The notes beneath the pieces were generated by a model. It had not been told where the DNA came from. It saw only the letters and a program-made list of their open reading frames with translations, and did not search any database. 41,791 nucleotides of DNA from IMG/VR virus record IMGVR_UViG_3300013372_004772, positions 1-41,791 of that record. One strand, 5' to 3'. Numbering within the stretch: position 1 is the stretch's first letter; the number at the start of each line of letters is the position of its first letter. Made by a program: the position numbers and the translations under genes. This document shows, one piece after another, positions 1 to 40,619 of the stretch. Source of the DNA: a virus.

Positions 1-3000
1 CAAGGTCCCAATCATCGATGGCGTGGAAATGTCGTTATCCTCCCTTTGCGTGAAGTCAAGATAATGGCCGATTTCATGGACCAACACGGCGTAGCCAAGT
101 CTCTGCTTTACCTTGTCTGCCACCTCGGCCCATTCTTTGGCTTCTGGCGAACCTTGTTCGGGTTCACGTAATTCAAAACCAAGTGGAATGTCAAGAGATG
201 CAAAAAGATTTGTCAGATTACGTGACTGCCTGGGACTCCTAAGGGCCTCATTCCAACGACTCACAAACCCGGCTTCGGCGGCATCTTCTGGGGAACCGTC
301 GTTGTTGATTGTGGATAAATTAATTAATATTTCAGATTTGGTTTTATTATCACCTAGTTTTGCTCGAGACCACCACTTTTGTTTTGGAGCAAATGCCCCC
401 ATGGATGAGTCACTAAACTCGGAGGATTCAAAATTAATCTCAAGTTCGTCTCTTTCGGTGAGTCCCTTAATATCGAGATTATTCAAAACGTCGTCAAGCG
501 CCTGCAGCACCCCATACATTGCCAACTGATGCTGTCTGTCTGTTTCCGTTTTTGGTTCAATGGCGGACTTTGGCGCGTTCACTTTTACACCATGAGTTTT
601 TTCAAAGTATTTTGCCACGTCTTTCCGCGTAGAGCCAAATCTAGTTTTTTGCGTTTCGATATCTGCCACAACTGGCGTTCCATCTGCAGCCCGACCGAAT
701 GTGAGTTCGCTTGGACCATTGGTGACTTTTTCTCTGGTGGTTCTGGACGATAACCCACCACTGCGCGTGCTTGACGCCAAACCACCACTGCGTTTTGGTT
801 TGTCTGGTTGTTTTGCTTTTGTGGCGTCGAGTCTTTTAAGTTCTTCATTAATCATGCTAGTTAAATTGGCTTTATTTTTTTCATCATTTCCCGGTTCGTT
901 GTCGGGATGGTCGAAAAGCATGAATGTTCTCCCCGTACCAACACCGTGTGTTTTTTCATATCGACGCAAAAATGCCTCATAGGGCGTAGTTTTTTCGTCT
1001 GGGACTAATTCCTCAACTGTCACTCCCTCCCAATCGCCCGAATCTATTTTTCCCTGAACCCACACTCTTGTCATTTGCGGATTGAATGGTTCCACTTCAT
1101 CCAGTGGCAGCAACTGAGAATCCAGAACCAAATCAATCCCTCGTTCGGCTAACTCTTCACGTTTTTGGGCGGCTTTAATAATTGAAGTTACGTTTTGGTC
1201 CGATAGTGGATTGACTCCAACTGAAGAAGACTTTCCCATGTCTGTTCTAATTTCCGCGGGGGACACAACGACAGCAGCAATATCCTGGCCACCGAATGAG
1301 CCAAGAATCATTGCTTCTTGATACACCGCTTTGCCGCTTCCATCTTTAAGCAAATTGGCAGCAGGTGAAGCAACTGAGTCCATATCCCCAGTCCTGTCTG
1401 CATAAAGAATTGACGCTGGATTGAAATATGAATCCCGATATGGACTTGCCTCAATTGTCGAAAGTTTTGCTGCAGGAGACCTTGAGCCAGCATTGGTGAC
1501 ACTATCCCCCTGGAAAACCAGTGACCGCTCGGCAACATCGGAGCGCAGAATAACCCTAGACCTTCCATACTGACTCATGTCGGCATTGTCCGCCTGAGCC
1601 GCCGCTCCAACCGCATAGGGATGCTGTATCTCCACGTCCTCGCCATATTTTTTCTTTAACGTGGAGACTCGGCGTTTTTCGGAAACTGCGGAAGTCACAA
1701 AACCAGACGCAGGCCGCAATTTTCTAGTTGATTCTGAATCGTCGTCATAGGGGATACCCAGATAATTTAATTCCTGTATCTTGCGGGCATTGGCCGTAAA
1801 CAGCGGGTCGAACCCGAATCTTTCACTGAGCCCCCGCACTCCCGCCCTCTTCATATCATCGACATCGTGCACCGTTAGGTATCTATCGCTGTTGATGATT
1901 CGAATAGGGTCACTTACTTGAACAGATACATTTTGACTAAATTGTGGTGGAAGTCTTTTTAGCGCATCCTCAACCGCAAGATTTAATTCATCAGGGGACA
2001 TTTTTTCAATGTCTTGAATTAATTGTTTAATTATTTCTGCTTTTGCGTCATCGCCCTGCTCGACCGCGTCTTTGACCGCTTGCTCCAGTCTGCCCTTGTA
2101 TCCATTGGGGAACTTGCCGGATGGGCTCATCGTGAGCGCGGTGCTGCCTGATTTTTTGTCTTTAGATACCTCGGGCATCACATCTCTTTCGTACCTGTCA
2201 ATATCAATGCCTTTTTCCTTTGCCTGCGAAAGAATTTCTGCTGTACGATTTCCCGACGTTGACGACGCCAAACCTTGTCGGTCTCTTAGTTTTCTTACAA
2301 CGGAAGCAGAGAAGTCTGGGGCCGTTGCATCGCGTGCCGCCACCTTCTTTTTGGCGATACCAAACTCGTCGGTCCATTCGTTTGCAAGACGGAGAATTTT
2401 GGTAATTGGCGCATCCAAAACAATGACGGCCATTTCGTGGTTGTTCCCCAAGATGCCGTCCTCAAAATCCATCGCCAGCATTGCGGCCCATCTGTGATGG
2501 CCATCGACCACATAGCCATCCCTGGAAACGAAAATGGGCTTCTTGCCTGGGTCATACGTACCCGCCTTTTTTGCACCCATCATTCCTGCAACTTTTTGTC
2601 CCTGCATGTCTCTTTGGGTCGCCTTGAGTTTGTCTGAGCGCATTGTCGTTGGCTCTCCCGAAGAAATACCTCCAACCGTTTTCAAATACTCCAAGAACGA
2701 TTCAGTTCCATTGACTTCGACTGATATCTTTTCTCCCTTGGCGAGTCTCTTTGCATTCTGCGCTTCGAGCATTTTCTCTGCGGCGCTTCCAGGAACTGGT
2801 TTTCCTTCTGCTTGTGGCATCATGAATCTTGGAATTCCCTTGTTTCCTAAACAAAATGCGCTAGTTCCTTTCACTGTCACCTGACAAAGGTCAAATACGA
2901 AATTATCTAATTCTTCTTTTGAGATTTCACCATTCTCTGCCATGTTTTCCAAAGTAGAAATCATTTTTGCCAATTCATCAATGAGGGTGTGGGCGCCCTC

Positions 3001-6000
3001 CATGTCCGGCATGTCAACATCATGGCCATCAAGAAGCGCCATAACACCTTCCTCAACCGTAGAAACGGAGACAAGTTTTCTTTCAATGGCGGGTTGAATG
3101 TTTAATGATTTAAGATAATTGCTCCAATTCTGCTGCATGAGGCTGTCATCTTCATCGTCTGGGTCGTCGATATCAATATCAGCAAAAGCCTCTCGCACTA
3201 AATCGTCGATTCTTTTACTCTCGGGCGTCGAGGTTCGAGACGCCATGCCAACACGAGCAGCGCGCTTGGAGGGAACGTATGGTTCTGGGCTTTCTTCAAG
3301 TTCACGAATAAGTTTGTCTGGTGCATTAGCGGAACCCGCATCCCTAACACGGCCGTAAGGGACGTTGCCGAATTCTCTTGTTTCCCCGTTTTTGTACGAA
3401 ACTGTAAGGGTTCCGGTTTGTGGGTCATATTCAATTTTCTTGGCAATTGATGAATTGCGTGAATCTAGTTCCATTGCCACAGCAGCCTGTGCTCTTGGTG
3501 CTCTAGTTAATTCTTGATGTCTTTCGATTCTATTTTCTGAACGCTTTGCGACAATTCTTTGCCCTAGTGGCCGTGATTCATTTGTGCCAAGGGAATGCAA
3601 AACCTGCCTTAACTCATTTAATTGTTCATCGGGCCCCTTCTGGGAAGCGATTCTTCCAATTGCAACACCATCGGTTCTTCTGCCGACAATCTCTATTTCT
3701 CCGGGAGGGAGAATCAGCGAACCTATTTCGCCACCGTTGGTTCCTGGAGTTTTGTCAGGCAAACCCTTAGAACCTTCCGGTACAACAATCATTAATCGTT
3801 GTACTGAACTTTCCGTATCGGTATCCAAAGACGAAACGTCATCCACTGAGTGCATAACCGCCGTAAAGTGCTTATTAACGGATATCAGCGCATTCGAGTC
3901 GTTACCAAGTGCGCCAGTTGGTAAATGGATTTCAGCAACAACTTCTGTCGGCATCTCCGAAGAATCAATCAAATCGATAAAAGGTATTAACTGATTTTCG
4001 ATTGAGTTAACAACTTCATTTGTTCGTGATTGCAGCGCCCTGCCCCACTCGACTGGGTCGGAAGTATTCCATTTTGCACCCCTCCAGTCACCATCAATTA
4101 TTTGTCTCTGCTGCGAGGTCGCGGTATCCATGATTGATTCGTGGACTTGACTTCCCATTCGCGAAACATCAGTTCTTGAAGAAAGACCCCCTGCGGAATC
4201 AATTAAACTTGCGATTTCTCTTACGTAATCGTCGATTTCACCAATAACGGTTCCGCCTGGAATGTCTTCGAGTTCCCGACGGTTTTTGCGACGCCTCAAA
4301 CCCCTGCTAATAGATTCCTTAATCGACTTCTTGATACTGTCTCGCGTAAGAGCGACTACTGGTTTTGCGTCAGGGTTGGCCATGCCAAAGTCGGTGGGGA
4401 TATCCGTATCGAAATCAAGTGGTCCAAGGAATGCATCTATTTCTGGAGTTCGCTCAAGAAGCCCTGCCTCAACTGCTGCACCAACATCTGCCTGCATTTC
4501 GGCAATGGTGAGGGCGGACTTGATTTTAAATGTTTTGTGAAGTTCGTCGAGAACTTCTTCGCTTTTGCTTTCGTAGGCTCTGGCGACTTGGGTGTATACG
4601 TCTAGGGCTGCTTCGTACTTTGTTGTGCCAATTTCACCTCTTGCCTCCATGGCTTTTATTTCTCGATGCAGTTTCTGCAGGGGTAAATACAGTTCTCTTC
4701 TTTCCTTGACATCCGCATTGATGAATGGCGCCATATATGCAGCACTCCAGTAATTCTTCATGGCATATTTCCCGCCTGCGTTTTTACTAAGAAGGACTTG
4801 CATTACTTCGGGTAAATTGTCAAGCGCATTTGGAAGCCAATCGCTATTGCTAATAATCGATGCAAAATCCCAATCCCTACCGAAAAGGCTCGGGAAACTT
4901 GCCTCACCGCTGAGCAGCCCTTGGGCAAGTCTCATCAACTCTTCGCTAGTGTAATTGTCTGTGATGCCCGGAATTGATTTGAGATAGTTTGCTATAAGCA
5001 CTAATTGTCGACCGTGAATCATTTCGTGATTCATGATGAACATTCCTTGACCGAGCGTCCCCTGAGTTGCCGAAATTGCAAACTGCTGATACTCGTCACC
5101 CTTGTCGATTTGTTCCCGCATTGCGGCGAGGTTCATGGTTTCGGAAAAATAACTCTCCTTAATTCTTCGCGCTCCCTCTCTATCTAACGAAGTTGATATT
5201 GCTTGCAATTTTGCAACCTCTGTGCCCGCTGTGCCATCTGCTTCGAATAGGGTGAATCCGTTTCCATCTTGACCCATGTTCTCCATGGACTTCAATGGAA
5301 CGATTGGGTTGATGCCGATATCGAATCCGCCCGCTTCATTTGCCCACGTCACGGCATCGGAAGTACCGTTGAATTTGTCGTCTGGGTGAATAAATTCTAT
5401 TTTTCCAATTCTCGAAGTCAATTCTGGATATTTCCTACGTTGGTTGGCCAAAGCAATCAACATGCCAGATTCTTGCTGAATTAAGCCATTGTATTTCCCT
5501 ATCACGCCTGCAAATACTTTTTCCTCCATTGAGCCTGGCGCGAATACGTCGGACATTTTTTTTCGTCCTTCAAAAACTGCCAAAACGTCATCTCTGAATT
5601 TTTTTACATCTCCACCATATTTGGTATCTATTAAATTTTTGAACTCACTTGCCGTAATGCCAAATTTTTGAGGGTTGGAATCTAGGTACGTAAAAACCAA
5701 ACTCATTTGCGTGGCCCTGTGTTTGGCCATTGCTTTGTCGAAATTTTTATCACCTGGATTTGCTCCGTAAAGTCCGCTGAAATCTGCCGCCCATGCGCCC
5801 CCTTCCGGACTTTTCATCTTTTCAAATACTTTTGCAATTCCATCTTGAACGGAGTTCGGGTTCGTGGGGTCGATATCAATACCCATATCTCTGGCCATGT
5901 CCAGAAACTCAGTTACGTCTGAGCGAGTTTTGTCTTTCAATCTTTGCCGCATAACGGCTGTTTTTGTTAATCTTTTTATTTCCGCTTCGCTTTTCTCTGG

Positions 6001-6993
6001 GAATGCTCTGCGAATTAGAGTTTCGAAAACGTCTTCGTAGTCATCTGGGTCAATTGGTATGGCTGAGGCAGCGAGGTCGGCAACGTCTTTTGCGAATTCC
6101 GGTGAAGGTATTTCTCTGCCGTCTGGTCCAAGAATCCCCGTACCACGGAGTCTCCCCGTAGTGCTCGCCAATCCTCGAGCAACCCTGCTTTGGGCTTGTC
6201 TGGAAACTCGAGAAACACCACCCGCCCCATCGGAAACAAGCGGTACTGCGGAATCAATGTCAGAAATATCCGCCATCGCGGCTTGTACCGCATTGCGCAC
6301 AAAATCGACTACGGCTCTGCCAATTGCGGGTGTAAAATCAAAACAGTTGCTCCCAATTTCATCTGTGAATTGGTTGGCTGCGGGCACACCTGGAGGGCAA
6401 CGCATTCTCCCACTTGGGTCGAGAACTATACCAACAGCCCTTGCCGCAGCCTGTCCGATATTCCCAGCGGCACTTCCGATACTTGGCCCCAATGCCTTGA
6501 CTTTTAATTGCCCAGTACGTTTGTCCATCTTTGCAGGGCGAGCAATAATTTTTGGATTGAAATCTTTGGAAAAACTTTCTCCTGCTGCTTTTACCAGGTC
6601 ATCCTGTTTTACCGTTCTCGGCCTGTCAATCCATCCGACATTTGCGACATCTCCCATTTGCCCATCGAGATTAAAGCGTGGAGTTACTTCAAAATATTGA
6701 TTTTCTTTTTTCTTTGCTTTTGGGTCGTAGCAGTGAGTTCCAATTCGTTTGAAATTGGATTCTTTTTTGCGCTTATCTTTGTTATCTGCCGACGCATTCG
6801 CCCTGCCGGACCCTCCGCGCTTCCCGGCGCCCATGGCGGCCTTGGTTGCGTAGTCGGCAGAAAACGGAAATACGCTGAGCATCTGCCGAGTCTCGGCAAA
6901 TTCGAAAATCCGTTCTTGTTTTGATTTTGTGACTATCGGCGCAAATCTTTGATTTGTGATTACACGCGATATGACGACCCTACGCTCCTGCAT
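1..6993 (-). CDS. Giant polyvalent virion protein (3' end outside window)
   Basis: An uninterrupted frame of 2331 codons runs off the left edge; I checked every in-frame codon and found no stop. ATG at 6993 follows AGGAAAAGG by about 8 nt. Visible segments: basic N-terminus with a Cys-Pro-Pro-Gly...Gln-Phe-Thr...Cys motif (199-217); a zinc-protease-like HEMIH followed by Gly-Arg-Gln (656-660); a weak ADP-ribosyltransferase-like strand SLILPPGEIEIV (1092-1103); a KTSC-like segment (about 1185-1240); a ParB/Srx-like domain with DGHHRW (1497-1502); and a second HExxH, HEIGHYLD (2306-2313). Short GL[AS]S-type peptides separate these segments. The gene is last in the visible portal-protease operon. 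Such architecture fits polyvalent proteins packaged with phage DNA and injected into the host; that role is inference. Individual enzymatic activities are unproven, and the weakest call is the ADP-ribosyltransferase-like part. Confidence 0.85.
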   Translation of the reverse strand, partial: MQERRVVISRVITNQRFAPIVTKSKQERIFEFAETRQMLSVFPFSADYATKAAMGAGKRGGSGRANASADNKDKRKKESNFKRIGTHCYDPKAKKKENQYFEVTPRFNLDGQMGDVANVGWIDRPRTVKQDDLVKAAGESFSKDFNPKIIARPAKMDKRTGQLKVKALGPSIGSAAGNIGQAAARAVGIVLDPSGRMRCPPGVPAANQFTDEIGSNCFDFTPAIGRAVVDFVRNAVQAAMADISDIDSAVPLVSDGAGGVSRVSRQAQSRVARGLASTTGRLRGTGILGPDGREIPSPEFAKDVADLAASAIPIDPDDYEDVFETLIRRAFPEKSEAEIKRLTKTAVMRQRLKDKTRSDVTEFLDMARDMGIDIDPTNPNSVQDGIAKVFEKMKSPEGGAWAADFSGLYGANPGDKNFDKAMAKHRATQMSLVFTYLDSNPQKFGITASEFKNLIDTKYGGDVKKFRDDVLAVFEGRKKMSDVFAPGSMEEKVFAGVIGKYNGLIQQESGMLIALANQRRKYPELTSRIGKIEFIHPDDKFNGTSDAVTWANEAGGFDIGINPIVPLKSMENMGQDGNGFTLFEADGTAGTEVAKLQAISTSLDREGARRIKESYFSETMNLAAMREQIDKGDEYQQFAISATQGTLGQGMFIMNHEMIHGRQLVLIANYLKSIPGITDNYTSEELMRLAQGLLSGEASFPSLFGRDWDFASIISNSDWLPNALDNLPEVMQVLLSKNAGGKYAMKNYWSAAYMAPFINADVKERRELYLPLQKLHREIKAMEARGEIGTTKYEAALDVYTQVARAYESKSEEVLDELHKTFKIKSALTIAEMQADVGAAVEAGLLERTPEIDAFLGPLDFDTDIPTDFGMANPDAKPVVALTRDSIKKSIKESISRGLRRRKNRRELEDIPGGTVIGEIDDYVREIASLIDSAGGLSSRTDVSRMGSQVHESIMDTATSQQRQIIDGDWRGAKWNTSDPVEWGRALQSRTNEVVNSIENQLIPFIDLIDSSEMPTEVVAEIHLPTGALGNDSNALISVNKHFTAVMHSVDDVSSLDTDTESSVQRLMIVVPEGSKGLPDKTPGTNGGEIGSLILPPGEIEIVGRRTDGVAIGRIASQKGPDEQLNELRQVLHSLGTNESRPLGQRIVAKRSENRIERHQELTRAPRAQAAVAMELDSRNSSIAKKIEYDPQTGTLTVSYKNGETREFGNVPYGRVRDAGSANAPDKLIRELEESPEPYVPSKRAARVGMASRTSTPESKRIDDLVREAFADIDIDDPDDEDDSLMQQNWSNYLKSLNIQPAIERKLVSVSTVEEGVMALLDGHDVDMPDMEGAHTLIDELAKMISTLENMAENGEISKEELDNFVFDLCQVTVKGTSAFCLGNKGIPRFMMPQAEGKPVPGSAAEKMLEAQNAKRLAKGEKISVEVNGTESFLEYLKTVGGISSGEPTTMRSDKLKATQRDMQGQKVAGMMGAKKAGTYDPGKKPIFVSRDGYVVDGHHRWAAMLAMDFEDGILGNNHEMAVIVLDAPITKILRLANEWTDEFGIAKKKVAARDATAPDFSASVVRKLRDRQGLASSTSGNRTAEILSQAKEKGIDIDRYERDVMPEVSKDKKSGSTALTMSPSGKFPNGYKGRLEQAVKDAVEQGDDAKAEIIKQLIQDIEKMSPDELNLAVEDALKRLPPQFSQNVSVQVSDPIRIINSDRYLTVHDVDDMKRAGVRGLSERFGFDPLFTANARKIQELNYLGIPYDDDSESTRKLRPASGFVTSAVSEKRRVSTLKKKYGEDVEIQHPYAVGAAAQADNADMSQYGRSRVILRSDVAERSLVFQGDSVTNAGSRSPAAKLSTIEASPYRDSYFNPASILYADRTGDMDSVASPAANLLKDGSGKAVYQEAMILGSFGGQDIAAVVVSPAEIRTDMGKSSSVGVNPLSDQNVTSIIKAAQKREELAERGIDLVLDSQLLPLDEVEPFNPQMTRVWVQGKIDSGDWEGVTVEELVPDEKTTPYEAFLRRYEKTHGVGTGRTFMLFDHPDNEPGNDEKNKANLTSMINEELKRLDATKAKQPDKPKRSGGLASSTRSGGLSSRTTREKVTNGPSELTFGRAADGTPVVADIETQKTRFGSTRKDVAKYFEKTHGVKVNAPKSAIEPKTETDRQHQLAMYGVLQALDDVLNNLDIKGLTERDELEINFESSEFSDSSMGAFAPKQKWWSRAKLGDNKTKSEILINLSTINNDGSPEDAAEAGFVSRWNEALRSPRQSRNLTNLFASLDIPLGFELREPEQGSPEAKEWAEVADKVKQRLGYAVLVHEIGHYLDFTQREDNDISTPSMIGTL
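739..789 (-). repeat. Tandem SGGL[AS]SxT peptide repeat inside the giant protein
   Basis: The frame encodes SGGLASSTR followed directly by SGGLSSRT (residues about 2069-2085). Single copies of the same motif occur at residues 274, 936, 1249 and 1574 of this protein, near residue 1061 of the prohead protease fusion, and near residue 677 of the tape measure. The doubled copy lies between an unassigned segment and the C-terminal HExxH segment. It may be a linker or a processing site. Confidence 0.7.
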
Positions 6994-8503: not shown

Positions 8504-11500
8504 TTAAGCGTCAACTGGTTTTGAAGTTTTATCCACAAACGTTGACATCGCCGCTGAAGAAACTTTTTCAAGTAGTTCTGCGAATATTTCTCCTCTTGAA
8601 CCCATGGTCCCACCTTTGCCAGCAGTTTTTTGTCTATCGATTACCGCCATTACGGCATCAAGTATTTGGTCCGCTTCGTCTGCTGAAATCTTAATAAAAC
8701 CAACATTCGTTCTTTTTGAATTTGGCCTAAAAGCGCCCGCTTCGTATTTGGCAATTTTCTGTTGAAGTAGGGTTAGCCCTTTACGTATCGCATCCGAATC
8801 TGATTTTTTGATTTCTGCCGGAAGGGATTCATCAATCTTTTTCCACCAAGTTGATTCTGTGGTTACTTGAGTCCTGGGCATTTTGTTGTCCGTGGACGAA
8901 GAAAGTCCGCCGCTTCGGCCCTGCTTTCTTCTTCGATGTGCTTTTTGGTAATTGGTGGCCTTAGCAACGGCTCTGTTGATATTTTGCTCAAAATCAACCT
9001 CACCGAAGCCCTCTTCGGCGCCTGTTCGTTCGCTTCCGTAAACTTCATCAATATTTACACCGCCCAAAACATCCTCGTCGCCCTCATCTAGGCCAAGTCG
9101 CTCGACCGCTTCCCCACGCCTATAAAGCGATTCTCGGGCCTGCTCGGCTCCAAGGTCATCCTCTCTGTCCGAACTTCTTTCCCCTTGATAATCTTCCAAA
9201 AATTCTCTGGCATTTGAAAAAAACGAAAGAATTCCTTTTTCGGTTTTGGACAATCTGCGCTCTTCTCCAATTTGTGCCAATTCTCGAACAGACTCGTCAA
9301 TGGCCTCCAAGGCATTGGAAATTGACTCGTCGGTTGGTGGTTCTGATTCTTCGGGGAATGCTGCTGAAATAATTCTTTCGGCTGCGTCATTTGCTGCGTC
9401 TACAAAATCACTTTCCACATCATCCCTGTCGGAGACTTCAGAAATGGTTTCTTGCCAAGCAGTCATTTTCCTACTGAGTTCGTTGGCTCTCCTACTCTCG
9501 GTGGAGTTAATTGTTTTTGGTGCCTTGGGAGCATCGGGTTCTTTTGGAGTTTTGGGTGCGTCTAATTCTGGCGTTTTTGGAACTTCCGGTTTTGGACTTA
9601 CCGACGGAGCCTTGGGTTTTGCGGCACGTTCTGCGGCCCTATCTCTTTCGTCTTCCAAATCCATAACTTGTTCAAGTAGAATGTCGTTGAGATTTTTGAC
9701 CCAAACTCTCCACTGCGGACTGCCTGTCAACCTGTCCAACTTTTCCCTATTCGCAGACACCCACTCAAACTTTTTTTCGACGTCCATTTCGCGCCAATCT
9801 TTTGGAAAATGGCCGGCATCGATGTAGGGCTGCATCGTATCCTTCCCTCTCATGTCTTTGAGGGAATCCAGCATTGTCATCTCGCCCGCATAATTTTTTC
9901 TGATAATAAAAGGTGTATATTCCAAAGGTTTGCCGTCTTTGCCTTTGGGGTATTTGGTTCCCTTTTTGACCCCCGCTGCTGCGCTTGGTTGGTTGGCGCG
10001 CAAATCAGTACCGCCGACTACTCGACGTTCTTGTTTTGGAGCCATTCCGGGTTTTTGACCGCTCCCAACATAGTCGCGTTCTCTCTGTACGTTGTCCCCC
10101 AATCCACCCCGGGCTTTGCCTCTGAGTTTATTTTTTCTTTCAAATTCTCCCGTTTCAACGATTTGCTTAATTATTTCATATGAGGAAATGCCTTTTTCCA
10201 TATTTCCGTTTGGGGATTTTCTGTGCCCACCAAATTCCTTGAACACATCTTGCACCTGAGGCCAAACAGCCTGGAGTTCCTTGAGCATCCCCTCATCAAT
10301 ATCTGGAAGATAAAGTGAGGTTTGCATTGCCCTTCCAACACCCATCGGCTTTTCCTGATACCTGACTGAATCTTTTACCGCTTTCCCAATTCTTTGAACA
10401 ATGTGGTCTTCTGGAAAATCCTTGACTACGTCATCGAACATTCTGACAAGTTTTGGCTTCAATTCTCTTGAGATAAATACGGGGATGGGTGGTCTTCCGT
10501 CTTTTGCTGCTTGCTGATACCAAAGAAGGTCCCCTTCCTTTCTTGACTTTCGTCTTTCCCGCGCCCTGAGTTGGGCTTCTGTTGCTGGTTTTATGACCGG
10601 AGCATCAGGGTCAACGGGGGATTCGGGGTTATTGGTATCGGAACGTAGTCCAACTGCTCTATTGGAGGACCTTGTCGGGTCTGGCATTTCCCGCCAAGTA
10701 CCATCAAAAATCAATCCATCACCGTCGATGTCACGGCGTTTTTGTGGGTCGAGGACTCCCTCTATCCGGGAAAGCGCGCCTCTAGCGCGCCTGACTTTTC
10801 CCCCACCACCGGGCGCAAGCCCGCGACCAATTCTCCCCAATAGATTTTTCGTGGCGGTGTCCACCGCTTCAAAGGCGTCGTAGTCCATCGGGGATGTCAG
10901 GACTATTCCTTCTTCCGTTACGAATGATTCAATTCTGTGGTAGTCAAGAACTGGGTCGATTGCTTGTTTCGTATTGAATAAGTCCTTTACGTCACACGGA
11001 ATCATCCATGCACTTTTTTCCTCGGTTTCGTATCCGATAATGTCCTGAAGAGACGAAACGATGCCACGTAATTTGTCGGCCAAGTTGTCTCCAGCGGCCA
11101 TTTTTTCTTCAAAGATTTCGTCCAAACTTTTCATTGAATCAAAAAGTCCACTTTGGACATTTGACTCACCGTATTTGACGGGAATAATCGGACCTTCTGC
11201 TGAAACAGGTTTTCTTTGCACCGCTGGAAAATTCGGCACTCTCTGCATTTGTTGTGGCCCGGGCTTCATTATCCCCGGCATTGGCCTTTGAACCATCATC
11301 GGTGAACTGAGTTTTTCCGGCTTCCCGAACATGTATTCTTCGCCGTCAAAGTAGTACCCGAGTCTGTACATCCCTTTGCCGGGTTTAAGAAATACAACGG
11401 AACTTTCGGTTGCCTTCATGACCTTGATTGGGCCGCCAGTTCTTGTTGACAACTCATTTGTTAAGGCAATCAATCTGTCGCCCTCGACCGGTTGGGCGAT

Positions 11501-12091
11501 TCCTTGAGCAAATGGGTCGTTTGGTTGCTGCGGTTTTTCGTCCAAGGAGATTGTCGCCATTGGCATCATGCCGTGGCCCTTTTCATCGCTTTTTACCGAA
11601 ATCGTTCCAGTTAATTGATTTGCGCCGTGCAATACCGGGCTCAACTCATAGAGTTCTACTTCGCGAAGAAGATTGGCTTGTTTTGCGTTATCAAAAACTG
11701 CATCAAGCGTTTTGTATCCAATTGACCACTCTTGCTCTTCGCCGAAGAATGCAACATTCGTGAATGCCTCCTTGCCCTTTTCTGAGTTCAAATTGAACTG
11801 AACTTTTGCATAAAGGCCGCCGATGCCAGCAATTTTCATTTTTGTAGGCAGCCGCGGGTCATTGGGCGGAACTTCATAAATTTCAAGAACCTTACCGATT
11901 GGGTCATTCCAATTGTGACCCCAAACAACTCTTGGTTTACGACGCTGGAGGCTTTTCGAAAACGCCCCAGTAACGCAGATGTCGCCAACGGAATCCTTGT
12001 TCCCAATTCCGGCTACGAAACATTCAACAATTCCCTGTGCCTCATCAATATTGAATTGGCCAGTATTGGCTTTGAATGAAATATCTTGCAT
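8504..12091 (-). CDS. HK97-type prohead protease fused to a large head protein
   Basis: 1195 residues; start ATG follows AAAGGA at 6 nt. Residues 1-165 form an HK97-family prohead protease: VVWGHNW with probable catalytic H59, EWSIGYK with probable S123, and LYELSPVLHGAN (148-157). Family members are usually near 200 residues, so about 1000 residues are additional. The extension has a Met/Pro-rich stretch, a DIDGDGLIFDGT calcium-loop-like motif near 454-465, a charged helical region, a Pro/Lys-rich linker (about 817-865), an acidic helical region, and SGGLSSST near 1060-1067. The protease normally trims capsid or scaffold proteins during head maturation. The extension may be a structural or injected part, released by self-processing; that is inference. 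It follows the portal, the standard order. Confidence 0.88.
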   Translation of the reverse strand: MQDISFKANTGQFNIDEAQGIVECFVAGIGNKDSVGDICVTGAFSKSLQRRKPRVVWGHNWNDPIGKVLEIYEVPPNDPRLPTKMKIAGIGGLYAKVQFNLNSEKGKEAFTNVAFFGEEQEWSIGYKTLDAVFDNAKQANLLREVELYELSPVLHGANQLTGTISVKSDEKGHGMMPMATISLDEKPQQPNDPFAQGIAQPVEGDRLIALTNELSTRTGGPIKVMKATESSVVFLKPGKGMYRLGYYFDGEEYMFGKPEKLSSPMMVQRPMPGIMKPGPQQMQRVPNFPAVQRKPVSAEGPIIPVKYGESNVQSGLFDSMKSLDEIFEEKMAAGDNLADKLRGIVSSLQDIIGYETEEKSAWMIPCDVKDLFNTKQAIDPVLDYHRIESFVTEEGIVLTSPMDYDAFEAVDTATKNLLGRIGRGLAPGGGGKVRRARGALSRIEGVLDPQKRRDIDGDGLIFDGTWREMPDPTRSSNRAVGLRSDTNNPESPVDPDAPVIKPATEAQLRARERRKSRKEGDLLWYQQAAKDGRPPIPVFISRELKPKLVRMFDDVVKDFPEDHIVQRIGKAVKDSVRYQEKPMGVGRAMQTSLYLPDIDEGMLKELQAVWPQVQDVFKEFGGHRKSPNGNMEKGISSYEIIKQIVETGEFERKNKLRGKARGGLGDNVQRERDYVGSGQKPGMAPKQERRVVGGTDLRANQPSAAAGVKKGTKYPKGKDGKPLEYTPFIIRKNYAGEMTMLDSLKDMRGKDTMQPYIDAGHFPKDWREMDVEKKFEWVSANREKLDRLTGSPQWRVWVKNLNDILLEQVMDLEDERDRAAERAAKPKAPSVSPKPEVPKTPELDAPKTPKEPDAPKAPKTINSTESRRANELSRKMTAWQETISEVSDRDDVESDFVDAANDAAERIISAAFPEESEPPTDESISNALEAIDESVRELAQIGEERRLSKTEKGILSFFSNAREFLEDYQGERSSDREDDLGAEQARESLYRRGEAVERLGLDEGDEDVLGGVNIDEVYGSERTGAEEGFGEVDFEQNINRAVAKATNYQKAHRRRKQGRSGGLSSSTDNKMPRTQVTTESTWWKKIDESLPAEIKKSDSDAIRKGLTLLQQKIAKYEAGAFRPNSKRTNVGFIKISADEADQILDAVMAVIDRQKTAGKGGTMGSRGEIFAELLEKVSSAAMSTFVDKTSKPVDA

Positions 12092-12179: not shown

Positions 12180-14165
12180 CTAACTTACGTACATCCATGC
12201 TCGGCGCGCTTCGGCGGCAGCAATGTCTCCGACTGATTTGGCCAAGATGCTAGAGAAGATGGCCACACAACTTGCCCGTAGGTGGAGGTTTCTGTCGTCT
12301 TCGTTTTTTACATTTAGGCTGGACGAATACGCGGAATTGAGAGAATTATAGGTCGTCTGATTCACCTGCTTGAAACGTTCAATCTGTGAATTGAGGTGCG
12401 CAATCAAATCTGATTTGTTCAGGGACTTTTCCGAAACCTCAATCCCGTCATGAAGAATTGCCGACAACACAGGACGGATGTCTTCCTCCATTTGCTTATC
12501 CCAAATTTCACTGTTAAAAATGCTATCGATTGACAGGTTTCCGCTTGATATGGCTCGCTTGGCTCGTACGCCACCTATTTTTTCCAGAGTGACTCGTTGC
12601 TGGCGCTCGATGACTCTTTCAAATGCGCGATTAAGAATTGCGCTCCATCTTTGCAATGAAATGTTATCTTCCTTGGTTTCGATGAAACCAAATGAGTCAG
12701 CCGATAATTGCTGTTGCGGCATTTCTGCTGTTGTTTCCATCCCTGGAGGTGGTGCCGGTAGCGGCGGCACTGGCTGCGTTGCCGCTTCTGCTGCCATTGA
12801 GCCGGCCATAGTGTTTGGGTCAAGAGGGCTTGGAATATTTCCTTGAGCATCAGGCATCCCAGGTACTGGGGGTTGCTCGCCGGGCATGCCAGGGGGCATT
12901 CCGGGCATACCGGCTTGTGGTTGTGCTTCCATTTTCTTTTCGGTATTCGCGATTGGCGTCAAATTTGGATTCATCAATAGGGAGTCGGCGAGGTCACTCT
13001 CCACTTTTTTGCGACTCGTAAATTCGCGATACTCGTTTGTGCTTATTAGCCCCATTTGTACTTCATCCATAAAATACCGTGAGCGTTCCTGTTTGTACAG
13101 AATCAAGACCGGAACACTGGATACATCAAAGTCGACGTAATTAACGTCATCCAATTCGTCAAATCCACGTGCAAGGAGGTCCAAGTGCGGGAGCATTGTT
13201 TCGTTCCAAAAAACGCGATGTTCTTCGGAAGCGTTGGCGAAAGTTCTTCCAGATGCATTTCCGATTACTGACTCAGGAACACCAAAGGCGGCAAGAATTT
13301 CCTCTTTCTGAATTTGTCGCATCTGAACATAGGCAGCATCTCGCGGGCTTGCAGACGTGTCAACGTAGTCAACCCCATCGTCGGATGAGATTACGGTGGT
13401 TGCACCAGCCCTACCAATGTTGCCCCTAAATCTATTTCTTAGTTCCTCTTTGTCGTCGTCATCAATCTCACCCTTGACTACAAGAATGCCGCCTGGTCGT
13501 CCATCGTTAATTAGATAATTCCTGTTATAAACTTTTGCAAGATTTTCAATTTCGATTGCAACTCCGGCCGATTCCATTGGCGTAAGCGACAGGTACGGGT
13601 CAAGGGGGTGTGGTCTGCGAATCCACAAGACATCCTCTTTGGGCATGACTATTTTATTTCCGTTAGGCAGATTGACTTCGTACCCCGAGACAAAAGTTTT
13701 TTCGTGCGGAACTGGCGCAGTGAACTGAGGGGGCAAAAGACTGAGACCGATAAGTCTTCCGTCTCTACCTTTAATTTTTTCAATGAACGCACCGCGCGAA
13801 CTCATTAACAATTGAGATGTAAGCCTGTAGCGAAAAATGAAAGCGTTTTCTGCCTCATTGGACTTTGTGTTGAATATCTCGATTAAAGGAGAACGCAGCG
13901 CTCTCCTGCCTGTAAGTACTTCTCCGTCTCTGGAATTGTCCTTGCGGAGAATGATTGACAAGCGCGCCTGGTTTCCCGCAATTGCGTCAATACATCTCTG
14001 TACCCATGTAATTTTTTGAAATCCTTCGCGATACGCACGTTCAATGTCCCACATGTCGTGGTACGGCTTGCCCACGCGGCCCAAATCCAGATTCACGGGC
14101 GCACCCGGACCGATGGATTTGGGGCCTTGATTTAAGCCTTTATTTTGAAATGAATTCCAAGCCAT
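12180..14165 (-). CDS. Portal protein
   Basis: 661 residues. The first roughly 400 residues match an HK97-type portal, including the N-terminal WDIERAYREGFQKITWVQRCIDAIAG, the segment with LWIRRPHPLDPYLSLTPM and the region with AAFGVPESVIGNASGRTFANASEEHRVFW. A Met/Pro/Gly-rich linker (about 412-475) leads to a helical C-terminal extension of about 180 residues, longer than the usual 400-500 for the family. The portal forms the dodecameric DNA channel at a capsid vertex and docks the terminase and neck. The ATG follows GGGAG by about 13 nt. It lies 7 nt downstream of a small membrane-protein gene and is opposite in direction to the terminase, an unusual arrangement. Confidence 0.92.
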   Translation of the reverse strand: MAWNSFQNKGLNQGPKSIGPGAPVNLDLGRVGKPYHDMWDIERAYREGFQKITWVQRCIDAIAGNQARLSIILRKDNSRDGEVLTGRRALRSPLIEIFNTKSNEAENAFIFRYRLTSQLLMSSRGAFIEKIKGRDGRLIGLSLLPPQFTAPVPHEKTFVSGYEVNLPNGNKIVMPKEDVLWIRRPHPLDPYLSLTPMESAGVAIEIENLAKVYNRNYLINDGRPGGILVVKGEIDDDDKEELRNRFRGNIGRAGATTVISSDDGVDYVDTSASPRDAAYVQMRQIQKEEILAAFGVPESVIGNASGRTFANASEEHRVFWNETMLPHLDLLARGFDELDDVNYVDFDVSSVPVLILYKQERSRYFMDEVQMGLISTNEYREFTSRKKVESDLADSLLMNPNLTPIANTEKKMEAQPQAGMPGMPPGMPGEQPPVPGMPDAQGNIPSPLDPNTMAGSMAAEAATQPVPPLPAPPPGMETTAEMPQQQLSADSFGFIETKEDNISLQRWSAILNRAFERVIERQQRVTLEKIGGVRAKRAISSGNLSIDSIFNSEIWDKQMEEDIRPVLSAILHDGIEVSEKSLNKSDLIAHLNSQIERFKQVNQTTYNSLNSAYSSSLNVKNEDDRNLHLRASCVAIFSSILAKSVGDIAAAEARRAWMYVS

Positions 14166-14403: not shown

Positions 14404-15708
14404 ATGAGCGACTGGAAAAAAATCTTAGAGTTTCTTGAACCCAAGGAACCTGTGTTCTGTCCTGAGCAGCCGTCAATAAATCAGAGAGTTTTTTTAAGGA
14501 CCAACTCGATTGAGGCGCTCTTTGGCGGCGCCGCTGGTGGCGGGAAGTCATCAGCGCTTTTGATGGCCGCCCTACAATACGTAGACATACCCGGGTACTC
14601 GGCGATTTTGTTCAGAAGAACTTTTGCCGACCTATCGCTACCTGGAGCGTTGATGGACAGATTCCGGTCGTGGGTCAGCAACTATGACGACGTCCACTGG
14701 AACAACAACAGTTTTGTTGCCACCTTTCCGTCTGGGGCGAGAATCTCGTTCGGTTACCTCAATAACGTGAACGATTACCTTCGTTATAAGGGTTCGGAAT
14801 TTCAATTCATAGGGATGGATGAGGTCACGGAAATCAGGGAGTCCGACTATCGGTACCTATTCTCTCGTCTACGTCGCCCTGCAAGCGGACCCCTTTCAAC
14901 GGTCCCCCTGAGGATGAGGTGTGCCTCAAACCCGGCCCCGAACTGGGTGCGACAGCGATTTATAGTTGAAGGCAAAGAAAAGGGCCGTATTTTCGTGCCT
15001 TCCCGCCTTACCGACAACCCTGGGATTGACGCCACCTCTTATAGGCAAGCCCTATCCGCCCTTGACCCCGTCGAAAGAAGGAGGCTGGAAGAGGGTGACT
15101 GGTGGTCGACCACTCTTGGAAGCATGTTTGATAGGACGTCAGTAGTTATAATAGATAATGAAGAAATACCCATTGCGGCCTCAACGGCCCGTGTTGTGAG
15201 ATTTTGGGACATGGCGGCGACAGAGCCAAATCAGTCCACCCCCGACCCAGACTGGACTGTTGGTACATTGATGATGTTTGACCAAGGAATTGCCTATGTC
15301 TTGGATGTCAAGAAAAAAAGACTCAAAGCAGACAAAATCGAGCAATTTATTGCCCAAACCGCGTATGAGGATGGGCATGGCGTGGCGATTCGCATGGAAC
15401 AGGAGCCTGGTTCGTCTGGCAAGACAGTCGTCGACCAGTTCGCCAGATACGTGCTGCCGGGCTTTGATTTTGGGGCAAATAGGGCAACGGGAGACAAAGT
15501 TACGAGGGCCCGCCCATTTGCGGCAGCCCTAGCCAACGGCAACGTGAGGGTACTCCGTGCTCCATGGCTAAGCGATTGGCTCGACGAATTGTCTTCATTC
15601 CCCGAGTCAGCCCCCCATGACGACCAAGTTGACTCAGCAACTGGGGCATTCAATTTTTTGACTGGATTGGGGTTGCCACAACGCCGAAAAGTCAGTATCG
15701 TAGTTTAA
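14404..15708 (+). CDS. terL: Terminase large subunit
   Basis: 434 residues, full length for the family. The ATPase domain has Walker A GGAAGGGKSS (41-50), Walker B FIGMDE (135-140) and the coupling segment CASNPAP (173-179). The C-terminal RNase H-like nuclease has RFWDMA with D269, an acidic strand RMEQEPG (330-336) and the closing HDDQVDSA (405-412). It translocates DNA into the prohead through the portal and cuts concatemers. No small subunit is recognisable nearby. It heads the rightward gene block, divergent from the portal. Confidence 0.96.
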   Translation: MSDWKKILEFLEPKEPVFCPEQPSINQRVFLRTNSIEALFGGAAGGGKSSALLMAALQYVDIPGYSAILFRRTFADLSLPGALMDRFRSWVSNYDDVHWNNNSFVATFPSGARISFGYLNNVNDYLRYKGSEFQFIGMDEVTEIRESDYRYLFSRLRRPASGPLSTVPLRMRCASNPAPNWVRQRFIVEGKEKGRIFVPSRLTDNPGIDATSYRQALSALDPVERRRLEEGDWWSTTLGSMFDRTSVVIIDNEEIPIAASTARVVRFWDMAATEPNQSTPDPDWTVGTLMMFDQGIAYVLDVKKKRLKADKIEQFIAQTAYEDGHGVAIRMEQEPGSSGKTVVDQFARYVLPGFDFGANRATGDKVTRARPFAAALANGNVRVLRAPWLSDWLDELSSFPESAPHDDQVDSATGAFNFLTGLGLPQRRKVSIVV

Positions 15709-18519: not shown

Positions 18520-19098
18520 GTGAATGACGCGGCCCTCTTGCCACCCCCGAAACTAATGGGATTGGACCTCTCCCTTACATCAACTGGAGTCAGTGTTGGA
18601 GAAAACACCTTCACAATTAAGCCCAAAACCAAGGGGGTCGAGAGGCTCGTCGAGGTATCCGAAAAGGTCCTCGAATGTGCCAGTAGAACAAATCCGATAG
18701 CAGTGATTGTTGAGGGCTATTCGTATGGTTCAAAATTTTCCAGAGCACATGCCCTTGGAGAACTTGGCGGTTCGGTCAAAATGATGCTTTATAAATCCGG
18801 ATTTAAAATTGTTGAGGTTCCTCCAAAATGCAGGGCCAAATTTGCAACCGGGAATGGCAATTCTGGAAAACTTGATGTTTTGGCTTCCTTGCGAACTATT
18901 GCTCCCGCAAAGTTTTTTGAAAAGCATGACGACGACGAGTGCGACGCTTGGGTGCTGGAACAAATGGCATATGCGGAAATTGGAGAATCCCCATATAAGT
19001 GGTCCGATGTGCAAATGTCGGCACTAGATAAGGTAGATTGGGCTCCACTATACGACGCACTAAAGGGAAGTAAACCATGGTCAGAACTGCTCCCATAA
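18520..19098 (+). CDS. RuvC-like Holliday junction resolvase
   Basis: 192 residues with GTG start at 18520. RNase H-fold acidic residues: GLDLSLTSTG with D16, IVEGYSYG with E65, and DDDECDAWVLEQM with D139 and D142. GNGNSGKLDVL (111-121) fits the conserved Lys region of phage RuvC-like proteins. It would cut branched DNA before packaging or during recombination. The 3' end overlaps the next gene by 22 nt. Confidence 0.87.
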   Translation: MNDAALLPPPKLMGLDLSLTSTGVSVGENTFTIKPKTKGVERLVEVSEKVLECASRTNPIAVIVEGYSYGSKFSRAHALGELGGSVKMMLYKSGFKIVEVPPKCRAKFATGNGNSGKLDVLASLRTIAPAKFFEKHDDDECDAWVLEQMAYAEIGESPYKWSDVQMSALDKVDWAPLYDALKGSKPWSELLP

Positions 19099-19415
19099 GC
19101 CAAGTCCAAATCGAACAAGAATTATTGCGCATGATGGACTTGCTCGAAAGCGAAACAGAAGCATTTGAAAAACTTGCCGAGGATGCAGCCAAAAAAGAAG
19201 CGCAGTTTAAAGCGAATTGGGCCAAGGAATATCTTTCCGCAAAAGGCTCAATCAAGGAACGCGAAGCGTGGGCAGATTACAAGATGGCCGACTTAAATTA
19301 CGATTACAAAATAGCGGAAGCGCTAGTTAAGTCCAAAAGAGAAAAATTAATTTCGCTAAGAACATCGATGGATTCACTCAGGACATTGAACGCAAACGTC
19401 AGGGTTCAGGTATGA
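19077..19415 (+). CDS. Unknown coiled-coil protein
   Basis: 112 residues; AAGGGAAG precedes the ATG. Almost wholly helical and rich in Glu, Lys and Ala. The closing region (EKLISLRTSMDSLRTLNANVRV) resembles small actinophage proteins seen next to recombination genes, by general impression only. Its stop overlaps the following ParB-like start (ATGA). No enzymatic motif. Confidence 0.65.
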   Translation: MVRTAPISQVQIEQELLRMMDLLESETEAFEKLAEDAAKKEAQFKANWAKEYLSAKGSIKEREAWADYKMADLNYDYKIAEALVKSKREKLISLRTSMDSLRTLNANVRVQV

Positions 19416-20209
19416 ACAATATTCATCCGTCGCTTGAACCAATGTCTTTCCCTATCGAGCAATTGGCCCATCTTCAGGACAATCCAAGAAAAGGAAATGT
19501 CGAAGCAATTGCGGCTTCATATCGGGAATTTGGTCAGGTTAAGCCAATAGTCGCCAAAATGAATACGGATGGGAGCGCAACAATAATTGCCGGAAACCAT
19601 CAAGTCATGGCAGCGAAACAACTTGGGTGGGACAAAATAGCGGTTGTATTTCTTGACGCAGACGACAAGAAGGCCATTGCTTATGCGCTCGCCGATAACA
19701 GGACGATGGAACTTGGCCATACCGATGAGGATATTTTGCAAAAACTTTTGGCAGAAGTTTCGACCGACTACAGCGAACTATGGGATGGTCTTGGTTGGGA
19801 TGAATTTGAGATGGCCGCCATGGACGAAAGAGCAGTCGTTAAAGCCAGTGACGCTTTGACAAATTCGACATACGTGGCTCCAGTAATGACCGGAACTCCG
19901 CAGTCCCACTACACCGACATGGAGAAACAAATTTCATCTCTCGCCGCAACAGACGAACAAGACGGGGAAGACAAATTAATCGCCCCAAGCGGCGTTGACC
20001 AATCAGATGTGGCAATCCGCGGTTCTGGTGTTGCCCTGCCTGGCTCGCAACCCAAGGCAATTGTTTCAGTGCAGGTCGTATTCGATTCACCCGAGCAACA
20101 ACGCAAATGGTATGACTTTGTCCGTTGGTTGAGAAATGACCCATCGATAGACGGGAACACAACTGCTGAAAGATTAATTTACTTCATCGACTCACATACG
20201 AACTCATGA
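19412..20209 (+). CDS. ParB-like protein (first of cassette)
   Basis: 265 residues. The ParB/Srx fold covers about 12-100: DNPRKGNVEAIAASYREFG, then GQVKPIVAKM, then IIAGNHQVMAAKQLG (58-72), a GNH variant of the ParB nucleotide-binding motif, and ALADNRTMELG. The C-terminal part has a short conserved-looking tail (QQRKWYDFVRWLR). Phage proteins of this type often accompany DNA-modifying enzymes rather than partition systems. There is no ParA here. It overlaps the next gene by ATGA, so it is probably co-produced with the PAPS-reductase-like enzyme. Confidence 0.85.
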   Translation: MNNIHPSLEPMSFPIEQLAHLQDNPRKGNVEAIAASYREFGQVKPIVAKMNTDGSATIIAGNHQVMAAKQLGWDKIAVVFLDADDKKAIAYALADNRTMELGHTDEDILQKLLAEVSTDYSELWDGLGWDEFEMAAMDERAVVKASDALTNSTYVAPVMTGTPQSHYTDMEKQISSLAATDEQDGEDKLIAPSGVDQSDVAIRGSGVALPGSQPKAIVSVQVVFDSPEQQRKWYDFVRWLRNDPSIDGNTTAERLIYFIDSHTNS

Positions 20210-21354
20210 GTAGACAGAGACTTTTTCTTGACATAAATTGTGTCGACGCGGCAAGACAGAGAATTCGCCATGTTTACGACACATTCGACACAGTTTGCGT
20301 TCAGTTTTCTGGCGGCAAAGACTCGACTGCAGTCTTGTTGCTGGCGAAAGAAATACACGAAGAACGAAACTTGGGCCCTGTTAAAGTTATTTTCAGAGAC
20401 GAAGAAATGGTCAGCCCGTTAGTAATTGATTACATTAATTACATCCGAGAACTTCCATGGGTGGACATGGAGTGGTACTGCATGCCGCAGGGCTCAGAAG
20501 TCTGGGTTCTTGGTAAGAGGGAATCGATTATTCTGTGGAGCGAGATTCGCAGAAAAGAAGGACGTCTTGCCAGAGAAATCCCTCCGTTTGCGATAACGGC
20601 AGAGCACTTTGGGCTTCCACCTGGCAAGCCACCGCCAGAAATAATTGACTATTACACCATGCAGGGGAAGGTCGGCAGCACGGCTTTTATTACTGGCGTT
20701 CGCGCTTCGGAGTCGATGCTTCGTTATCGCTCCCTGGTGCAAAAACTTCACGAAAATTACATTGTCACTCCATATAAATCCAAAAAAGGCATACCCTTAA
20801 AATTTGCAAAAGTCATTTATGACTGGCAAACAGCAGACGTATTCAAGTTCATAATCGAAGAACACAATTTTCGCTACTGCGAGTACTACGACCGAGCCGC
20901 GATTACCGGCAGTAATACGCGAGTGGGAATCCCTCTCCACGGAGTAGCCATAAGACGCCTGGGGGACGTCATCGCAACAGAGCCAGAATTCTACGATGTT
21001 TTGGTTCACTGTTTTCCTGAAATAGATGCTCAGCGTCGGTATTGGTCTGTTTACGATTACGACAAATTAATTAAGCAATATGCAGAAAAAGGCTTTGATG
21101 GGGTTAAGCAATTCATCAACGACTTTATGATGAATGAATTCAAGGCCGTAAGGGCGAAAGCATTTGTTGCAGAATTTAGAAGAAAACATGCGGTTGACCC
21201 GCATTCATACACTATTTATTCTTTGATTTATCAAATGTTCATGGGTGCGATGCTTCACAGCGTTGCCGTATCACCAATTGGTCCAAAAACAAAATCACAC
21301 TCAGTCAGAGCGATTGAGGAAATAGAAAGCGCAGATGTGAACGATGGAAATTAG
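20206..21354 (+). CDS. PAPS-reductase/IbrA-like PP-loop protein
   Basis: 382 residues. The PP-loop is FSGGKDSTAVLLL (34-46), followed by VKVIFRDEEMVSPLVIDYI and an internal TGVRASESMLRYRS segment. This places it in the phosphoadenosine phosphosulfate reductase-like ATP pyrophosphatase superfamily, including IbrA and DndC relatives. These enzymes adenylylate or transfer sulfur-type groups; a sulfate-assimilation role is unlikely in a phage. It is sandwiched between two ParB-like genes, with 4-nt and 11-nt overlaps. This is the IbrA-IbrB style pairing plus one extra ParB. A DNA-modification or anti-restriction role is inference. Confidence 0.88.
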   Translation: MSRQRLFLDINCVDAARQRIRHVYDTFDTVCVQFSGGKDSTAVLLLAKEIHEERNLGPVKVIFRDEEMVSPLVIDYINYIRELPWVDMEWYCMPQGSEVWVLGKRESIILWSEIRRKEGRLAREIPPFAITAEHFGLPPGKPPPEIIDYYTMQGKVGSTAFITGVRASESMLRYRSLVQKLHENYIVTPYKSKKGIPLKFAKVIYDWQTADVFKFIIEEHNFRYCEYYDRAAITGSNTRVGIPLHGVAIRRLGDVIATEPEFYDVLVHCFPEIDAQRRYWSVYDYDKLIKQYAEKGFDGVKQFINDFMMNEFKAVRAKAFVAEFRRKHAVDPHSYTIYSLIYQMFMGAMLHSVAVSPIGPKTKSHSVRAIEEIESADVNDGN

Positions 21355-21886
21355 CCTTATCCCAGTAGACGATTTAAAAAAAGGCAGTTGGCACTCAAAT
21401 CAGATATTAAAGCCAGACCTAAAATCGCTTGCTAAATCAATAGCGGACTTTGGTTTCATTTCGCCTTTAACGATAATGAAGAAAGATAACTCCGTTATTG
21501 ATGGGTATCACAGATGGATGATTGTCAAGGAAAGTGTTGAACTTAGAAAAACCATTACAGAAATACCTTGCGTATTGATTGATTGTGATTCGCTTGACGC
21601 CGCCATGATGCACCTAAGACTGAACAGGTCGAGAGGCTCGCTCGTTGCCCACCGAGTTTCCGAAGTGGTAAAAACACTGGTTCGTAGCAAAAAATACACA
21701 GAAGGTGATTTCAGGCAACTTCTGTCCATGTCGGTGGATGAACTTGATGTATTGCTTGACGGAACGATTATTAAACGTGTAAATATCTCCGAGCACAAAT
21801 ACTCGCGAGCATGGGTTCCTATCGAGGCCCCCAAAGGTGCGGTCGACAATTTCACCGCAGAAAAGCCACCGAATCAAGATAGGTAA
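21344..21886 (+). CDS. ParB/IbrB-like protein (second of cassette)
   Basis: 180 residues. The ParB/Srx core is compact: IPVDDLKKGSWHSNQILKP, then KSIADFGFISPLTI, then SVIDGYHRWMI (50-60), then the LRLNRSRG segment. The DGYHRW form is typical of IbrB-like proteins paired with PAPS-reductase-like IbrA. It overlaps the PP-loop gene by 11 nt. It differs from the GNH-type ParB at the front of the cassette and from the DGHHRW domain in the giant head protein. Confidence 0.85.
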   Translation: MEISLIPVDDLKKGSWHSNQILKPDLKSLAKSIADFGFISPLTIMKKDNSVIDGYHRWMIVKESVELRKTITEIPCVLIDCDSLDAAMMHLRLNRSRGSLVAHRVSEVVKTLVRSKKYTEGDFRQLLSMSVDELDVLLDGTIIKRVNISEHKYSRAWVPIEAPKGAVDNFTAEKPPNQDR

Positions 21887-21969: not shown

Positions 21970-22101
21970 ATGCCAGGTACAGAAATCGGTGGCGGAGAAG
22001 GTGGCGTCGCGGGAAGAATTAGACGTGGAGCATCCCGTGGAGTTGAACGTCTTCAAAGAACAGGTAGAGCAATTTTGGACCGTTTCCGCGGGCGTCGCTA
22101 A
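21970..22101 (+). CDS. Small basic Gly/Arg-rich protein
   Basis: 43 residues from ATG at 21970, preceded by CGAGGAG at 7 nt, a strong site that decides this start over an upstream in-frame GTG/ATG. The N-terminus is Gly-rich (PGTEIGGGEGGVAGRI); the rest is an Arg-rich amphipathic helix ending DRFRGRR. Net charge is strongly positive. No family is recognised. It could bind DNA or be a small head or neck component, since the connector gene follows 35 nt downstream. Confidence 0.65.
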   Translation: MPGTEIGGGEGGVAGRIRRGASRGVERLQRTGRAILDRFRGRR

Positions 22102-22136
22102 AGCCTCACCGTTTTCAAAATTGAGAGGTTAGTCGA

Positions 22137-40035: not shown

Positions 40036-40533
40036 TTATTGCGAACCTATTGACAGCCTCGCAACGTCTTCCCCACTCAGGTAAATCTTGCCAAAACTTA
40101 TTTCGATTTCTTCGCCCGACCCACTAAGGATGATGTCAACCTGCTTGTAGTGGATTCCAAGTTTTTCAGCAATTGATTTTGACAATCCCAAGGAAATGCC
40201 ATAATCAATATGAAATTCAGTAGATTCCGAATCTGGTGTTGGCGCAATATTGGGAGTGGCAACAACATAGTGGACACCACCAGTTGAGGGATTCTCCTCT
40301 AGGGATATCTCAATAACCTCTTCTGTAATCGGTTCTTCTTGCAATTGCTCAACAACAGGCAATACTTTTTCTGGCTCACCATCTTCGGGAACAGAGTGAC
40401 GAAACGCAAACTTGTCGCTATTTGTTGAAAAATCGTCATCAGGACTGTCGGGTACGACCGGGATAACAGTTTTGGTAGATGCTTTTTTGGGCTTTGTGGC
40501 CTTTTTTACTGTTACTTTTTTCTTTGTTGCCAT
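40036..40533 (-). CDS. Lone minus-strand gene, Lys-rich N-terminus, unknown
   Basis: 165 residues from ATG 40533 with TAGGA at about 9 nt. An upstream in-frame ATG would add 31 residues but overlaps the divergent region and lacks a ribosome site. The N-terminus is Lys-rich (ATKKKVTVKKATKPKKASTK), the middle is acidic and probably disordered, and the C-terminus (HIDYGISLGLSKSIAEKLGI...EIEISFGKIYLSGEDVARL) is a small alpha/beta domain. No family recognised. It is convergent with the preceding fibre gene and divergent from the next, so it is independently transcribed. Confidence 0.75.
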   Translation of the reverse strand: MATKKKVTVKKATKPKKASTKTVIPVVPDSPDDDFSTNSDKFAFRHSVPEDGEPEKVLPVVEQLQEEPITEEVIEISLEENPSTGGVHYVVATPNIAPTPDSESTEFHIDYGISLGLSKSIAEKLGIHYKQVDIILSGSGEEIEISFGKIYLSGEDVARLSIGSQ

Positions 40534-40570
40534 AAATAAAATCCTACCATGATGAGTCCTCTCCATGTGC

Positions 40571-40576: not shown

Positions 40577-40619
40577 AGTACGAAGTTCGTATTCCGATAC
40601 ACCCAGCAAAGACGGTGCG

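Follow-up and report, generated by a model that had tools for sequence, protein, structure and literature searches.

The locus described here raises the question of what two different ParB-fold proteins and an enzyme of the PAPS-reductase family, encoded by three overlapping phage genes, do together. It lies in the record of a freshwater, contractile-tailed phage, which we analysed over its whole length of 41,791 bases (the window). IbrA-IbrB pairs are already known, as are phage ParB and PAPS genes, which are annotated in isolates; such genes are widely labelled 'PAPS reductase' or 'ParB-like nuclease' and taken as sulfur metabolism or partitioning. Our survey indicates instead a single phage module, conserved and with a methyltransferase exclusive to it, that contains, judging from sequence and structure models, a probable AMP-transfer enzyme. 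The open-licence papers that we consulted, in which absence is weak evidence, do not describe the triplet as a unit, its methyltransferase partner or the likeness to FAD synthase.

The overlapping genes and their surroundings

All three genes lie on the + strand and start with ATG. The first, at 19412..20209, encodes ParB1 (265 aa; PF02195 8e-9, phrog_723 2e-43 in the Pfam and PHROG searches). The second, at 20206..21354, encodes an IbrA-like PP-loop ATP-pyrophosphatase of the PAPS-reductase family, here called the PAPS protein (382 aa; PF01507 6e-10, phrog_2302 4e-76). The third, at 21344..21886, encodes ParB2, a short IbrB-like protein of the ParB/Srx fold (180 aa; phrog_2159 1e-26) which scores 20.7 bits against PF02195, below the cut-off of 26.3. 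The overlaps of 4 nt (ATGA) and 11 nt reported by the first-pass annotation can be read directly from the sequence, and so can its motifs: IIAGNHQVMAAK in the first gene, FSGGKDSTAVLLLAK in the second and VIDGYHRWMIVK in the third. In the set made up of the window and its 80 closest relatives, 45 members have the identical 4-nt overlap and 46 the identical 11-nt overlap, and pN/pS is 0.09-0.36 for all three genes. The genes are thus under purifying selection and, because the overlaps recur in relatives and pN/pS is low, the overlaps go beyond chance.

The overlapping run does not start at 19412, since an earlier gene of the phrog_1389 family, with no assigned function (19077..19415, + strand, 112 aa), already overlaps ParB1 by 4 nt. 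Its linkage to the module is confined to the close relatives of the window (cluster 7, 46 loci). The triplet sits inside a + strand gene run which begins at the terminase large subunit (14404-15708, + strand); the tail sheath gene starts at 24728. A short Arg-rich basic ORF (21971..22102, + strand, 43 aa) occupies the slot 3' of ParB2. ARAGORN found no tRNA in the window, and promoter and terminator scans gave scores at or near background.

Several features of the window are recorded here in their own right. The portal gene (12180-14165, - strand) and the terminase gene are divergently transcribed, and GC and AT skew switch sign near 14 kb. The ORF that runs off the window edge (1-6993, - strand) has a length of 2,331 aa or more. 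A 1,195-aa ORF (8504-12091, - strand) matches a head-maturation protease at its N-terminus only, and a single - strand ORF of 196 aa without a PHROG match (40036-40626) stands amid + strand tail-fibre genes.

Conservation of the triplet and its neighbours

To survey the locus, we gathered loci by similarity to the PAPS protein of the window, taking the best 80 matches, and then built and searched a profile for each of the proteins; coverage is therefore dense near the window and sparse elsewhere. ParB1 was found within 3 kb upstream of the PAPS gene in 62 of the 63 close IMG/VR loci with enough sequence (within 150 nt in 51), in 5/5 isolates and in 17/17 other viral loci; the sole exception, L077, has 998 nt of upstream sequence. 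On the downstream side, ParB2 follows at no more than 1.2 kb in all 79 close loci, 5/5 isolates and 17/17 other viral loci. At bacterial IbrA loci ParB2 was present in 77/79 and ParB1 in 4/75. These results uphold the earlier suggestion that a distinct ParB stands in front of an IbrA-IbrB-like pair, and the synteny survey, which the first-pass annotation had named as a check and, had the first ParB proved unlinked, as a refutation, came out in favour of the linkage.

Arthrobacter, Mycobacterium, Bacillus, Rhizobium, Amycolatopsis and Aminicenantes all have phages or prophages with the triplet. It is annotated in Arthrobacter phages Laroye and Kovu, Mycobacterium phage Athena, the M. abscessus prophage prophi79-1, Bacillus phage 022DV001 (B. 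subtilis), Rhizobium phage L338C and an Amycolatopsis phage-plasmid. In the tree, the phage-type PAPS proteins form a single clade of 29 rows (SH-aLRT 100), separate from the IbrA type; four of these rows have no ParB1, all on contigs whose upstream sequence falls short of 1 kb. Among 50,697 phage records, the C-terminal tail of ParB1 was detected only in triplet-bearing genera, in 73 records (Mycobacterium 52, Arthrobacter 12, Bacillus 6, Rhizobium 3). Phage-type PAPS is nearly as numerous across the same genera, with 74 records (52, 12, 6 and 4, respectively); the match is one of counts per genus and not of record-by-record pairs. A viral scan using the Bacillus PAPS protein as the query returned no relatives. 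Taken together, the three genes are probably one conserved phage module, kept across very different hosts.

Some loci depart from the plain arrangement. Two relatives have a ThyX-type thymidylate synthase gene between ParB1 and PAPS (L046, 6719-7408; L056, 6928-8001), and one of them carries a dCMP deaminase gene directly upstream (L056, 6044-6502). An insertion separates PAPS from ParB2 in L040 (9143-10210) and L041 (9143-10189); it encodes a protein of some 350 aa, of which the L040 copy has no Pfam, PHROG or NCBIfam match. Faecalibacterium phage FP_Taranis (L187, 3300-5639) has a ParB-PAPS-ParB arrangement adjoining the terminase, with a very divergent PAPS protein outside the phage-type clade, possibly an independent assembly. 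Pseudomonas phage Amjad_SA (L188, 2994-7152) carries an IbrB-like ParB before the PAPS gene, not after it, and then a protein of about 650 aa.

Next to the triplet, or within it, phages of Arthrobacter, M. abscessus and Bacillus and the further loci L168, L177 and L179 encode a small SAM methyltransferase, phrog_11826. It was found in 18 phage records, all from triplet-bearing groups, and ParB or PAPS is annotated next to it in most of these rows. The (N/D/S)PP(Y/F) motif of amino-methylating DNA enzymes is absent from this methyltransferase. In phage Kovu an acetyltransferase occupies the same slot. The window has no phrog_11826 gene, and no base-biosynthesis enzyme was recognised among its genes scanned. 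A PAPS relative in Microbacterium phage Hendrix (L190, 1619-5167) lacks ParB partners and lies in a glycosyltransferase-methyltransferase-acetyltransferase-PAPS cassette.

Terminase genes follow closely after the triplet in Laroye, Kovu, Athena, prophi79-1 and the Amycolatopsis phage-plasmid, and packaging genes adjoin it in 022DV001 if the ends of the record are joined. The fact that ParB1, PAPS and ParB2 are kept together, often near DNA-packaging genes, argues that they are probably one machine on phage DNA. The same proximity also fits a late-transcription activator. Late activators are usually placed ahead of terminase and structural genes, the position that the triplet holds in many phages, and the module could act on packaging and structural genes in the manner reported for E. 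coli IbrA-IbrB, with ParB1 adding DNA targeting. The PAPS and ParB2 half is indeed homologous to bacterial IbrA-IbrB, phage annotations read 'co-activator of prophage gene expression IbrA/IbrB', and the title of Sandt 2002, as it stands in the reference list of PMC10434257, names activation of prophage eib genes by IbrAB. However, an activator would have no need of an enzyme active site conserved so strictly, nor of a dedicated methyltransferase or acetyltransferase neighbour, a recognised HTH domain occurs in neither ParB, and FP_Taranis carries a RinA-like activator besides its triplet. We consider co-activation of late genes the chief alternative to DNA modification, possible but rather unlikely.

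Fold and predicted chemistry of the PAPS protein

Like IbrA-IbrB (YbdN-YbdM in E. coli K-12), the module pairs a PAPS-like protein with a short ParB after it, both homologous to the bacterial ones, and shares the PP-loop, RxxES and DW active-site residues and the DGxxR and NRxxG motifs of ParB2. Unlike the bacterial pair, it has the extra ParB1, a PAPS protein of a separate clade with a shorter C-terminus and, in some phages, the dedicated methyltransferase. The C-terminal region of bacterial IbrA (DUF3440) is not shared by the window protein, for which Pfam gave PF01507 only. In an alignment of the two clades, the PP-loop SGGKDS and residues D65, E67, R123, R166, E169, S170, R173, D206, W207, D211, Y228 and R239 are invariant. 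The same alignment contains no cysteine common to both clades and no conserved iron-sulfur cysteine set. Position 225 is Cys in all phage-type rows except L178 (Ser), and Asn in all bacterial rows except L091; in the phage clade C225 lies within a YCxxYD motif that is common to FAD synthase.

The AlphaFold2 model of the PAPS protein has a pLDDT of 88 and a pTM of 0.84 (our AlphaFold2 models were computed without rows from the phage collection). Its best structural match is FAD synthase, with Z 17.3 over 168-178 residues, and APS/PAPS reductases, FMN adenylyltransferase and ATP sulfurylase come next. A profile search against sequences of solved structures likewise returned FAD synthase first and CysD second (E 9.6e-9 over the whole sequence, single stretches being weak), and aligned the FAD-synthase motif PYCILYDR with YCxxYD. 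Both the GGKD PP-loop and the YCxLYD motif are thus common to the phage protein and FAD synthase/FMN adenylyltransferase, although identity is 18-19% and the phage protein has an extra C-terminal helical part and ParB partners. FAD synthase and ATP sulfurylase transfer AMP onto an oxyanion. Since these nearest relatives in fold and sequence transfer AMP, the window protein, which has the PP-loop and fold of PAPS-family adenylyltransferases of the FAD synthase/CysD type, is probably an adenylyl-transferring enzyme. By the family tests given below it is neither a sulfate reductase nor a DndC. The substrates of FAD synthase and CysD are small molecules, and likeness to a modelled fold would not by itself specify the substrate of the phage protein.

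The first-pass annotation had raised sulfur among the possible chemical modifications of DNA. Phosphorothioation or a thiolated base, with the PAPS protein acting as DndC or SspD, would draw on real similarities: the protein belongs to the same PP-loop superfamily as DndC, SspD and BrxP, Dnd systems are genetically tied to the ParB-like DndB, and PADLOC DndC models reach its N-terminal PP-loop, a comparison also published for an M. abscessus prophage gene (PMC8092301). C225 is near-invariant in the phage clade, and a LarE-like single-cysteine chemistry is conceivable. On the other hand, the protein scores 22.6 bits against the DndC model TIGR03183, far under its cut-off of 290.4, and matches to CysD and related NCBIfam models are also only far under cut-off. 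No DndD, DndE or cysteine desulfurase was found among the window genes scanned, although the host may supply a desulfurase. The lack of an iron-sulfur cysteine set also argues against this chemistry, and C225 as a sulfur carrier is weakened by the Asn of bacterial IbrA and by the equivalent Cys of FAD synthase, which is not a sulfur enzyme. The sulfur proposal has thus lost ground, the nearest relatives being AMP-transferring members of the family, and we consider it very unlikely. Auxiliary sulfate assimilation, in which a CysH-type gene would raise the sulfur metabolism of the host, takes its support from the family name of PF01507; with the C-terminal ECGLH motif absent, no CysH model among the NCBIfam matches, no cysteine shared by the two clades and near-invariable ParB partners, it is hardly credible.

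The two ParB-fold proteins and a model for the module

The N-terminal part of ParB1 is confidently modelled as a ParB/Noc/KorB fold (AlphaFold2, with Foldseek matches to Noc, ParB, KorB and PadC). In 90 homologues, the usual Arg position of its nucleotide-binding box is Gln in 70, Thr in 11 and Arg in 9, and a C-terminal tail of about 50 residues (about 214-262) is conserved. Based on its strand-helix-helix pattern, a ribbon-helix-helix fold was considered for this tail and rejected: the RHH profile probability was 0.2%, below that of the ParB2 control, and Pfam gave one weak RHH_10 match (E 0.19). In ParB2, the DGxxR and NRxxG motifs are invariant, with DG and R kept in 177/177 sequences. Both proteins share the ParB/Srx nucleotide-binding fold with plasmid and phage ParABS systems. 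In contrast to these, no HTH domain was recognised in either protein, no ParA was found among the window genes scanned, and ParB1 scores 35.9 bits against the canonical ParB model TIGR00180, below the cut-off of 58.45.

ParB folds bind CTP, ATP or GTP, are often fused in phages to methyltransferases or domains of unknown function, and occur alongside defence and mobile elements (PMC12704722). Together with the adenylyl-transfer fold of the PAPS protein, this nucleotide binding and this company would suit host takeover or counter-defence, in which the task of the complex would be adenylylation of a host protein or nucleotide signal, or the consumption of NTPs, with DNA as no more than a docking site. 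The first-pass annotation had likewise raised the sensing or blocking of host defence. The triplet adjoins packaging genes and not an early accessory region, which makes such a role improbable.

Of the several readings, chemical modification of DNA in the broad sense is still the best. The form that we tentatively prefer, at somewhat less than even confidence, is a ParB-guided adenylylating enzyme that acts on phage DNA near packaging, late in infection, probably as a modification system. In this model, the three gene products would form one phage machine. The PAPS enzyme would use ATP for AMP transfer or activation with release of pyrophosphate, in the manner of FAD synthase or ATP sulfurylase and not by thiol-based sulfate reduction, a chemistry suggested by its fold and sequence neighbours. 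ParB2, as the IbrB-type partner, would be its conserved nucleotide-binding subunit, and ParB1 a ParB-fold subunit added by the phage, whose own nucleotide fold and tail may bring the PAPS-ParB2 pair to phage DNA. The most likely substrate would be phage DNA just before packaging, on which a base or phosphate could be activated and then substituted, a dedicated methyltransferase or acetyltransferase elaborating the product in some phages; the outcome would be DNA shielded from host nucleases. Complex formation, DNA as the substrate and the protective purpose are all steps that we infer. A narrower version, in which a ParB-guided FAD-synthase-like enzyme directly adenylylates a base or phosphate, possibly at the packaging ends, and a methyl- or acetyltransferase finishes the mark in some phages, seems to us improbable as it stands. 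Athena and its kin, Laroye and 022DV001 are cultured carriers, and the function of enzymes of the IbrA-IbrB type is therefore directly testable in laboratory strains.

As a separate observation, a short, strongly basic ORF stands in the slot that separates ParB2 from the head-tail connector in 77/77 close loci tested, counting the best-charge ORF in each slot at a net charge of at least +5. Examples besides that of the window are found in L025 (5598-5825) and L051 (2340-2789), and these ORFs are Arg-rich in some loci and Lys/Ala-rich, like histone H1, in others.
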